From positions 1 through 37,839 of the forward strand of contig JACUUQ010000005.1 of the NCBI GenBank assembly GCA_014859175.1: a stretch of 37,839 bases of DNA. The letters are read 5' to 3'. Within the stretch, counting starts at the first letter, position 1. Every line of letters starts with the position of its first letter. The DNA comes from Lutibacter sp. Its GTDB lineage: Bacteria; Bacteroidota; Bacteroidia; Flavobacteriales; Flavobacteriaceae. Of this stretch, positions 8,172 to 37,839 are shown one piece after another. Made by a program: the position numbers and the translations under genes. The notes under the pieces were generated by a model. It was not told the DNA's origin and did not search any database. It was given only the letters and a program-made list of their open reading frames with translations.

Positions 8172-8343
8172 TTTTAGTTTAAATATTAAAGAGCGAAAAT
8201 ATTAAATTAATGCTAAAAACAACATATTTAACTAAATATAAATTCGTGATTTTGAATTTCAAACGGTCAATTGCTTTACTTCTTCGGAGAATATTTACTA
8301 AAAATGGCCAGGTTCTATTTAAAACAGCGTTTGTGCAGGAAAT

Positions 8344-8429
8344 GCGTTAGGGAGTGAAGTGAAAATCCTTTTATTGCCATTTCGCAATAAAAGATTGCAA
8401 CGAAAAGCCCGACCCTTGTGGGAACGCCC
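8344..8429 (+). repeat. Structured intergenic repeat, copy A (possible ncRNA)
   Basis: An 86-nt element in the otherwise gene-free stretch 8172-8649. It begins GCGTTAGGGAGTGAAG and ends with AACGAAAAGCCCGACCC, a short CCC/GGG hairpin and AACGCCC. The ends GCGTT and AACGC pair. Inside is a perfect 10-bp hairpin, CTTTTATTGC with GCAATAAAAG. Copy B at 14722-14811 on the other strand keeps the end blocks and pairing but has a different internal-hairpin sequence, which supports a selected RNA or DNA structure. I recall similar sequence between genes in many flavobacterial genomes. It may match the Flavo-1 RNA motif, but I cannot check that here. Confidence 0.7.
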
Positions 8430-14721: not shown

Positions 14722-14811
14722 GGGCGTTACCCTGCGGGTCGGGCTTTTCGTTACAAACTTTTTTTCGGTAAAAAAACCTCAAAAAAGGTTTTCCTCTTCA
14801 ATCCCTAACGC
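14722..14811 (-). repeat. Structured intergenic repeat, copy B
   Basis: Reads on the minus strand: GCGTTAGGGATTGAAG, then an internal hairpin (CTTTTTT and GGT paired with ACC and AAAAAAG), then AACGAAAAGCCCGACCC, a CCC-GCA-GGG hairpin and AACGCCC. End blocks are nearly identical to copy A at 8344-8429, while the internal stem has changed on both sides. Copies A and B face each other and bracket the lipoprotein-sbcCD-hsd block. Confidence 0.7.
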
Positions 14812-14860
14812 AAATCCCATTTTAAACCGAACTTAGCCTTATTTACCAAGCAATAATCAC

Positions 14861-25371: not shown

Positions 25372-25429
25372 AAAAAAAAAAAAAAAAAAAAAAAAAAAAC
25401 AAACCTCGCTCAAATAACTAGCGAGGTTT
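25372..25429 (-). terminator. Terminator with a 28-T tract
   Basis: On the minus strand a perfect 10-bp stem AAACCTCGCT/AGCGAGGTTT (25401-25410 with 25420-25429, 9-nt loop) is followed by G and then 28 consecutive T (plus-strand A, 25372-25399). It terminates the lipoprotein gene 20 nt downstream of its stop. The T-run is several times longer than needed. Confidence 0.85.
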
Positions 25430-26251: not shown

Positions 26252-26287
<36 letters not shown>

Positions 26288-36674: not shown

Positions 36675-36800
36675 AAATAAATGGTAAGTTTTTTTAAATA
36701 AATGGTAAATTATTTTGCATTCACAAACCCTTTAAAATCAGACAATTTGTTGTTTTTTATAAACAAATAGTATGTTTTTCACAACAAATGGTAAATTTTT
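36675..36800 (+). promoter_or_regulatory. Four-copy motif array upstream of the CAP gene (candidate operator)
   Basis: Four direct copies of AAAYAAATRGTAWRTTTTT begin at 36675, 36696, 36761 and 36782. Both pairs have a 21-bp spacing, two helical turns, so the sites in each pair lie on one face of the helix. The last copy ends 12 bp before the -33 element of the predicted CAP promoter, the position of an activator or architectural protein. It is not explained by simple AT-richness because GGTAA/AGTAT is kept at the same place. Confidence 0.6.
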
Positions 36801-36811
36801 TATAATTTTTA

Positions 36812-36842
36812 TTTGCACATTAAATTATTCTTGCTACATTTA
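36812..36842 (+). promoter_or_regulatory. Candidate promoter of the CAP lipoprotein gene
   Basis: TTTG (36812-36815), 19 nt, TACATTTA (36835-36842; last base differs from TAnnTTTG). Transcription would start near 36849, giving a leader of about 115 nt rich in ACCCCAAA words and ending GCTAACCCCAAACCCC before the ATG. Confidence 0.6.
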
Positions 36843-36964
36843 CAATATCAGAAACGAATAACCCAAAGTTTAAAACTGTAAAGTACCAAAACCCCAAACC
36901 CAAAAAAAATAAATCAACCCCAATTTGATTAAAAAATTACCGCTAACCCCAAACCCCAAAACAA

Positions 36965-37468
36965 ATGAAATCCTTAGCCCCAAAATTATTCGCATTACTC
37001 CTTTTAACTACCATTTTATTTTCCTGCGCTAAAGAAGAAGACGGCGTTTACTTTAATGACAATAGCGAAGTATTAAATGCCAAAGTTGTTTATTCCCCTA
37101 TCGAATCTGAAATTATAAGTCTGGTAAACGCCCACAGAACAAGCTTAGGCTTAAATGTATTAAACACTTTAAACATAGTTTCTGGCGTGGCAGACGGCCA
37201 CACCAACTATATGATTGAAATTGGTCAGGTAAATCACGACAACTTTGCACAAAGAGCACAAATTTTAATGAATGAAGCCAGTGCAAAAACAGTTGGTGAA
37301 AATGTTGCCTACGGATACAGTACTGCAGAAGGTGTTGTAAAAGGCTGGTTAAACAGTGACGGACACAGAAAAATTATTGAAAATCCGGATTATACCCACT
37401 TCGGGATTTCCATGGAACCCAATGCTGACAACAGAAATTACTTTACAAATATTTTTATCAGAAAGTAA
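36965..37468 (+). CDS. CAP/SCP-domain (PR-1-like) lipoprotein
   Basis: 167 residues. Signal peptide and lipobox LFSCAKEE (Cys 21); mature protein is one CAP domain: LVNAHRTSLGLNVL (residues 54-66), His 79 in ADGHTNYM, VNHDNFAQRAQI, VGENVAYGYS (GEN at 111-113), VVKGWLNSDGHRKIIENPDY (GH at 133-134) and a final FTNIFIRK strand. The His/Glu/His set of the CAP cavity is present. Bacterial CAP proteins are exported and of largely unknown activity. The four-copy motif array upstream implies dedicated control. Same strand as the 62-residue ORF, 64 nt further on. Confidence 0.93.
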   Translation: MKSLAPKLFALLLLTTILFSCAKEEDGVYFNDNSEVLNAKVVYSPIESEIISLVNAHRTSLGLNVLNTLNIVSGVADGHTNYMIEIGQVNHDNFAQRAQILMNEASAKTVGENVAYGYSTAEGVVKGWLNSDGHRKIIENPDYTHFGISMEPNADNRNYFTNIFIRK

Positions 37469-37532: not shown

Positions 37533-37721
37533 ATGAAAGCAATGCAATTAAAACAAACCGACACTACCCCTTTCTTAAAAGTCGTAAACAACACTTTGGC
37601 CAAAACAAATGCCATTACAGAGCAGGTTAACAGAATTTATATCAACACGCTAATGCCTGGCTTCAACTATATCAACAGTGAAGGAGAATCAATCACGCCA
37701 AAAAAATGCGCTTTGCTATAG
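37533..37721 (+). CDS. Hypothetical 62-residue protein
   Basis: No recognised family. MKAMQLKQTDTTPFLKVVNN is followed by a helical, Asn/Thr-rich middle and ends SITPKKCALL. No signal peptide or transmembrane helix. Support for translation: protein-like composition, an ATG preceded by TAACCCCTAAATTAAACAAG, a leader of the same kind as the LRR and CAP genes, and location 64 nt after the CAP stop. It may be expressed from the CAP transcript. The tandem repeat begins 19 nt after the stop. Confidence 0.5.
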   Translation: MKAMQLKQTDTTPFLKVVNNTLAKTNAITEQVNRIYINTLMPGFNYINSEGESITPKKCALL

Positions 37722-37740
37722 CGGTAAAATAATGACGACC

Positions 37741-37839
37741 GTCCCCACAACGGTTTTAGATTAAAAGTTCAAAACAAAATCATTGTCCCCACAACGGTTT
37801 TAGATTAAAAGTTCAAAACAAAATCATTGTCCCCACAAC
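37741..37839. repeat. 44-bp tandem repeat, open at the window end
   Basis: Two identical 44-bp units (37741-37784, 37785-37828), each beginning GTCCCCACAACGG, and the first 11 bases of a third. The base before the first unit breaks the period, so periodicity is exactly 99 nt and then the window ends. The unit length is not a multiple of 3, so it is non-coding. No variable spacer is present, unlike CRISPR. GTTTT and AAAAC within the unit can form a weak hairpin. The copy number is unknown. Confidence 0.9.

Follow-up and report, generated by a model that had tools for sequence, protein, structure and literature searches.

A 44-nucleotide tandem repeat at a Lutibacter contig end and its possible relation to a genus-wide family of hairpin elements

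The stretch of DNA analysed here (the window, 37,839 nucleotides) corresponds to contig C239 of a Lutibacter sp. genome assembled in 354 contigs and 99% complete. Towards the end of the window lie a NamZ-type gene, a gene for a CAP-domain lipoprotein-like protein and a 62-codon gene, followed by a perfect tandem repeat of period 44 that terminates with the contig (Table 1). This repeat (2.2 copies, 100% match) obtained the highest Tandem Repeats Finder score in the window, 198, and its length is exactly 99 nt, given that base 37740 is a C and the base 44 nt further on is a T; a 44-bp periodic run of 99 nt up to the window end, reported in the first-pass annotation, is thus confirmed. The repeat unit includes a core that reads ACCGTTGTGGGGACRAC on the minus strand. 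The whole 44-nt unit repeats identically, so that the unique spacers that separate the repeats of a CRISPR array are missing. A search for the unit elsewhere in the same genome, which had been suggested as a check, has given one other match of the 99-mer, at the start of contig C345, where a gene with a CxxCxxCC domain and then argS follow; the array is therefore located between the CAP-lipoprotein/62-codon gene pair and these genes. The repeat exceeds chance, since related repeats are found at the same place in relatives. Other simple tracts of the window are a series of nine perfect ATCA units (26252-26287), flanked by divergent or neighbouring ORFs and possibly phase-variable, and a nearly pure A run of 32 nt (25372-25403).

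Table 1. Coordinates of the features at the end of the window.
Feature	Position	Strand	Remarks
Two copies of AAATAAATGGTAA, 21 bp apart	36675..36708	.	
Another pair of related boxes, again 21 bp apart	36763..36794	.	
Promoter-like TTTG-N19-TACATTTAC	36812..36843	+	upstream of CAP gene
CAP-domain lipoprotein-like gene	36965..37468	+	PF00188, E 3.3e-14; upstream partner of the small gene
62-codon gene, small-protein family (47-62 aa, IYINTLxPxFxYxNxxG)	37533..37721	+	convergent to the candidate RNA element
Tandem array, period 44	37741..37839	-	cut by contig end; other side at the start of C345, same genome
Core copy 1, GTTGTGGGGAC on minus strand	37741..37751	-	
Core copy 2	37785..37795	-	
Core copy 3, at contig end	37829..37839	-	

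The 62-residue ORF and the CAP lipoprotein-like gene, beside which the array had been placed, are both borne out as genuine neighbours. The ORF looks like a genuine gene because, among the 62-aa versions of 11 relatives, pN is lower than pS in 55 of 55 pairs, with a median dN/dS of 0.215. Among the loci examined, 31 distinct members of the small-protein family have been collected, and in a sample of the bacterial family it occurs in 6 of 299 genomes and 3 of 236 genera. The protein has no Pfam, NCBIfam or PHROG family beyond chance-level matches (such as HAT1_C from Pfam, E 0.0029, in one of 19 members), and is absent from plasmid, PDB and PADLOC searches. A C-terminal CaaX or thiolactone-like cysteine was considered and dropped, the cysteine not being invariant. 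A second CAP gene exists in the same genome, with no visible adjoining small-protein gene or core. In a related genus (G333, L161) two CAP genes and two small-protein ORFs were observed, and the 21-mer core described below is unmatched there within 2 mismatches. Upstream of the CAP gene, between 36675 and 36794, two pairs of ATGGTA-type boxes, each spaced 21 bp apart, precede the promoter-like sequence, which we take to resemble Bacteroidota promoters, and similar pairs are located upstream in several relatives. LytTR-regulated promoters carry direct repeats 21-22 bp apart that are bound by a LytTR regulator, and the spacing seen here may be of this type.

The way in which the contig breaks bears on the size of the array. 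When a path in a de Bruijn graph runs into a perfect array, the resulting contig carries k nt of the array at its end, plus one further period if the path has made one turn of the loop. The first-pass annotation had attributed the contig stop to an assembler with k = 99 running into a tandem array; the encounter with the array holds, and the value of k is rejected, as the run lengths fit 55 and 99 is 44 + 55 (period plus k). In a survey of 109 ends sampled from 62 contigs of the same genome, a perfect periodic run (by our own criterion) was found at 11 ends, and the run minus its period equals exactly 55 at five of them, namely this end (99-44), the 3' end of C345 (L010), which is a 7-nt microsatellite (62-7), C6 (151-96), C11 (143-88) and C15 (157-102). 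The end of C28 is a run of exactly 55, and the remaining five ends misfit this value (58, 59, 96, 48 and 22). In addition, exactly the first 55 nt of C345 belong to the perfect run, and the unit that follows them is a variant. Because of the period-plus-55 ends and this 55-nt start, k is most likely 55, with a path that has gone once round the 44-nt loop, and the contig break is most likely a consequence of assembling at this k. Exact overlaps of fixed length were not found at the other sampled contig ends, but only between C239 and C345 (37 nt, end to end), so that k = 55 rests on the run lengths. At the opposite end of the window, its first 94 nt (1-94) overlap the reverse complement of C27 with a single mismatch, and this resembles strain variation or a repeat more than a k-mer overlap. 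Since C345 carries the other side of the array, about four copies suffice: the arithmetic requires no more than a 117-nt perfect run and four core copies, and the array probably has about this number of copies.

Matches to the array have been found in 15 of the 38 genomes of the genus, this one included. In the 11 complete arrays, that is, those with both the small gene and a far hairpin in view, the core counts are 4, 4, 5, 4, 4, 4, 5, 3, 3, 3 and 5. That the array is long, as had been suspected ("the real array may be long"), and was collapsed by the assembler is unsupported and very unlikely: the number of loop turns is unreadable from contigs, but both ends are accounted for by k = 55 with four copies and the relatives hold only 3-5. 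The lesson is that a contig-end repeat whose length is period plus k can mislead, 99 having resembled a k-mer size. Two matches are weak (L019 and L021), one region having two decayed cores and the other none. Across species, the core-to-core spacing varies from 20 to 101-115 nt and the core is kept. Of the 16 array pieces that contain cores, 13 also show a second, conserved hairpin (HP-C), with the plus-strand tip TTGTAAGGGGTTACAA, 108-195 nt past the last core; the three pieces that lack it are the window and L017, which are cut by contig ends, and the decayed L019. In L013 and L024 the genes past the array differ (a transposase-like ORF and an aldo/keto reductase-like ORF, by eye), and the array and the second hairpin stay together. 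Within one strand, the loop of this second hairpin is complementary to the array loops. As a speculation, the opposed CCCC and GGGG loops of the array hairpins and of this second hairpin may form a kissing contact.

The core is not restricted to arrays. A variant of it (plus strand GTCGTCCCCACAACGGTAGTA) is found again at other places of the same genome. With a 23-mer around the core and up to 3 mismatches, 118 matches were obtained in 35 of the 38 genus genomes, including 29 of 29 good ones, and a reversed-pattern control gave 2. A model of a covarying stem-loop capped by a close core variant (R1) found the element in 37 of 38 genus genomes and again in 29 of 29 good ones. In wider samples, R1 detected it in 7 of 397 genomes and 3 of 237 genera of the family, and the 21-mer with up to 2 mismatches matched only one of 395 genomes in a phylum sample, the genome under study. 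The exact 21-mer is present in 69 stretches of GTDB genomes, mostly of Lutibacter; the remainder come from other Flavobacteriaceae, or from ones named less precisely, and from one MAG named Urechidicola. There were no exact 21-mer matches in IMG/VR, and a viral link is unsupported. This distribution bears on the idea of a functionless minisatellite that has grown by slippage. The units of the window are identical, and the duplication is therefore recent, and the period varies between species; nevertheless, the core is kept across species as the spacers change in length and sequence, and it is common to dispersed elements in nearly every genome of the genus, so we regard this explanation as very improbable.

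The structure of the dispersed elements has been studied on 75 deduplicated instances, whose exact 21-mer conservation results from the selection of matches. Eight of them failed the rule used to find element ends, of which five lie at gcvP/pdhA and have another outer stem, two are truncated by contig ends and one is mutated. A further four repeated element sequences, which left 63; the alignments of 61 rows omit L134 and the second L145 copy. In the 61 elements, 75 cells have changed on both sides of a pair, compared with 30.7 expected, and none of 500 shuffles reached this value. Double-sided change affects 11 of the 16 pairs (8.0 in shuffles; 5 of 500 as high), and the count of further pair types is not above that of shuffles (250 of 500). 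A consensus computed by RNAalifold, with the core paired to the 3' arm, was discarded, since none of its 6 pairs is double-changed and the nested structure scores far better. Regarding the strand, the outer stem has 69 G.U pairs on the minus-strand reading, spread over several pairs, versus 3 on the plus strand, where the other 69 cells become A.C; the element ends had been set by regular expressions that allow both kinds of pair, and the wobble and covariation cells are not independent. For 53 of the 63 elements, the minus strand has the lower mean folding energy. The array mini-hairpins show the same bias, with 23 minus-strand against 3 plus-strand wobbles in 57 core copies. Because of the G.U asymmetry and the folding energies of the elements, the RNA strand is most likely the one opposite to the CAP and small-protein genes, with the tip GUUGU-GGGG-ACGAC. 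A single-strand account is countered by the second hairpin at the arrays, for which the plus strand gives the better fold in all 13 copies examined. The gcvP elements have a different outer stem and failed the boundary rule.

These data also serve to judge whether the dyad TTGT-CCCC-ACAA represents tandem operators for a dimeric DNA-binding protein. Operator clusters are common, and the array core is a near-perfect dyad with a fixed spacer. On the other hand, the elements are placed after genes and not before them, the dyad is imperfect in the dispersed elements (GTCGT/ACAAC), and a covarying outer stem with wobbles on one strand is unexpected for double-stranded DNA binding, all of which makes a DNA site rather unlikely.

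The dispersed elements are intergenic, and in 64 of the 68 cases where an upstream ORF of 100 codons or more was found, the closest such ORF points towards the element. In BLAST-based counts that have no random-locus control, an OmpA-family gene reads towards the element in 33 of 75 instances, a thioesterase gene reads away from it in 21 of 75, and a pdhA-like gene is present in 4 of 75; likewise without such a control, 31 of 75 instances have a CAP gene on the plus strand no more than 1.5 kb upstream, 19 of 75 a small-protein ORF and 9 of 75 both. This organization could be that of conserved 3'-end or terminator hairpins, the array cluster and the second hairpin mainly ending or protecting convergent transcripts and the loop mattering little. 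In agreement with this, many downstream genes also read towards the element from the opposite side, runs of A and T flank the stems, and HP-C has a strong stem with a T-rich flank. However, termination would need neither a 21-nt conserved apical sequence common to unrelated loci, largely kept also in other genera, nor a dedicated promoter-like sequence such as the one described next, and the array mini-hairpins are just 4-5 bp long; we consider terminators an unlikely explanation, albeit one to be kept in mind.

The promoter-like sequence TTGG-N19-TANNTTTAC is found on the minus strand, 178-229 nt upstream of the element, in 23 of the 24 instances of the AACAGYTG-stem subtype and in none of the 51 others, and these 23 are all the matches in the L079-L147 set (1.03 Mb, both strands counted). 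The alignment of this subtype shows the GTGGGGACGAC core once more, in a second hairpin further on. Owing to its own promoter-like sequence and this second hairpin, the subtype looks like a stand-alone sRNA. An AAGTTCA box common to arrays and stand-alone RNA was dropped, since its 9 occurrences in arrays (0.29 expected) are in related copies; the stand-alone copy of the genome under study has no such box. The stand-alone type aims at the end of a 47-codon gene, tens of nt away, and this, together with the purifying selection on the small genes, recalls a type I toxin-antitoxin-like pair in which a convergent RNA overlapping the mRNA 3' end holds down a small protein. Yet the small-protein ORF accompanies only the minority of elements counted above, no evident membrane segment is seen in the proteins (by eye) and no toxin family of PADLOC, Pfam or PHROG was matched, so such a pair is highly improbable.

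Whether the window array belongs to the family has to be judged from several features. The array contains the family core GTTGTGGGGAC and has been scored weakly by R1 (20.3 bits, E 0.16), as has C345 (21.2 bits, E 0.098); the array of the best relative reached 31 bits (E 6e-4). The outer stem RCAGYYGYAA/TTRCRACTGY is missing by sequence from the window array, the arrays in general being devoid of it, and the promoter-like sequence of the stand-alone type was not seen there. The window array folds no better than shuffles (z of -0.25 for the minus and -0.01 for the plus strand), and three arrays of relatives gave minus-strand z values of +1.47, +0.17 and -1.60, with -4.64 for the plus strand of the third. 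The proposed link between array and family is based on the shared core, position and orientation, and the explanation that includes it is one to which we give about an even chance.

According to that explanation, the short array, of about four copies, would be a diverged, tandemly duplicated apical part of a genus-wide structured-RNA family, its hairpins forming a multivalent binding site. Comparison of sequences shows the motif and its conservation, the covariation of the stem-loop, the asymmetry between strands, a promoter-like sequence and the low number of copies in relatives; from them we infer transcription, a partner and an effect. The hairpin motif, ACC-GUUGU-GGGG-ACRAC on the minus strand, would be intergenic and just past the CAP lipoprotein/small-protein pair, and other members of the family would be a promoter-bearing sRNA-like gene convergent with a small-protein gene and elements just after OmpA-family genes. 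Each hairpin would offer its GGGG loop to one trans-acting partner (another RNA or an RNA-binding protein). Several copies in tandem might constitute a multivalent site, which either influences what becomes of the convergent CAP/small-protein mRNA or titrates the partner. A broader proposal, which we regard as doubtful, is that Lutibacter and close relatives possess their own RNA control system, comprising a promoter-driven sRNA with GGGG-tetraloop hairpins, post-OmpA copies of its hairpin, decoy arrays, one RNA-binding partner that reads them all and the tie to the CAP/small-protein pair. If this were true, the biological significance would lie in an unnoticed structured RNA family, universal in the well-assembled genomes of one genus, whose strand is clear, which includes a subtype bearing its own promoter-like sequence and which has a conserved protein gene as its partner. 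It would also provide a compact test system for Flavobacteriaceae, where RNA regulation is little explored, with a partner other than CsrA to be found.

The family is apparently undescribed; Rfam gives no match at threshold in the loci scanned. In the open-access literature, nothing was found joining Lutibacter with structured RNA, and with small RNA only unrelated-looking work. At the gathering score, Rfam 15 matched only tRNA and Flavo-1 in the window, L038-L041 and six array loci, always elsewhere than the elements, and a search of parts of L039 and L040 at permissive E-values added nothing at gathering. Flavo-1 (RF01705) is also a dispersed hairpin of Flavobacteriaceae, and the array and elements differ from it in sequence and structure and are unmatched by it. 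Intergenic Flavo-1 copies were noted at 8341-8418 (+) and 14733-14816 (-) of the window, and another near a dispersed element in L041 (5206-5287).

Several known systems invite comparison. The array shares with sponge RNAs of the CsrB/RsmZ type a set of small hairpins whose G-rich loops contain GGA, although the Lutibacter loop is GGGG and not ANGGA. A strict CsrA sponge was rejected because the CsrA gene was not found in any of the 38 genus genomes, in a search whose control was positive in 3 of 14 known genomes. Another example is the GUCCY-hairpin, a Bacteroidetes motif that appears in Table 1 of its source with no Rfam number (PMC2864571). Compared by its name and table row, it is likewise a Bacteroidetes hairpin, and the plus-strand core of Lutibacter contains GUCCC, but the strand supported in Lutibacter is the other one. 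The paralogous sRNAs FopS and GibS of Bacteroides, FopS having 12-15 copies per genome, a single-stranded conserved 5' seed and an Rfam entry (PMC11697453), also form a multicopy family of related RNAs in Bacteroidota with a terminator-like hairpin. Judged by the description of FopS, the Lutibacter family differs in its fewer matches per genome (0-7), in having its conservation in the apical hairpin, in the additional occurrence of copies behind protein genes and as tandem arrays, and in its lack of an Rfam match at threshold. Finally, Rfp18 is a Flavobacterium sRNA that acts on protease mRNAs (PMC9723704) and, as far as its description allows the comparison, it is similar in being a conserved sRNA of the same bacterial family with several stem-loops.
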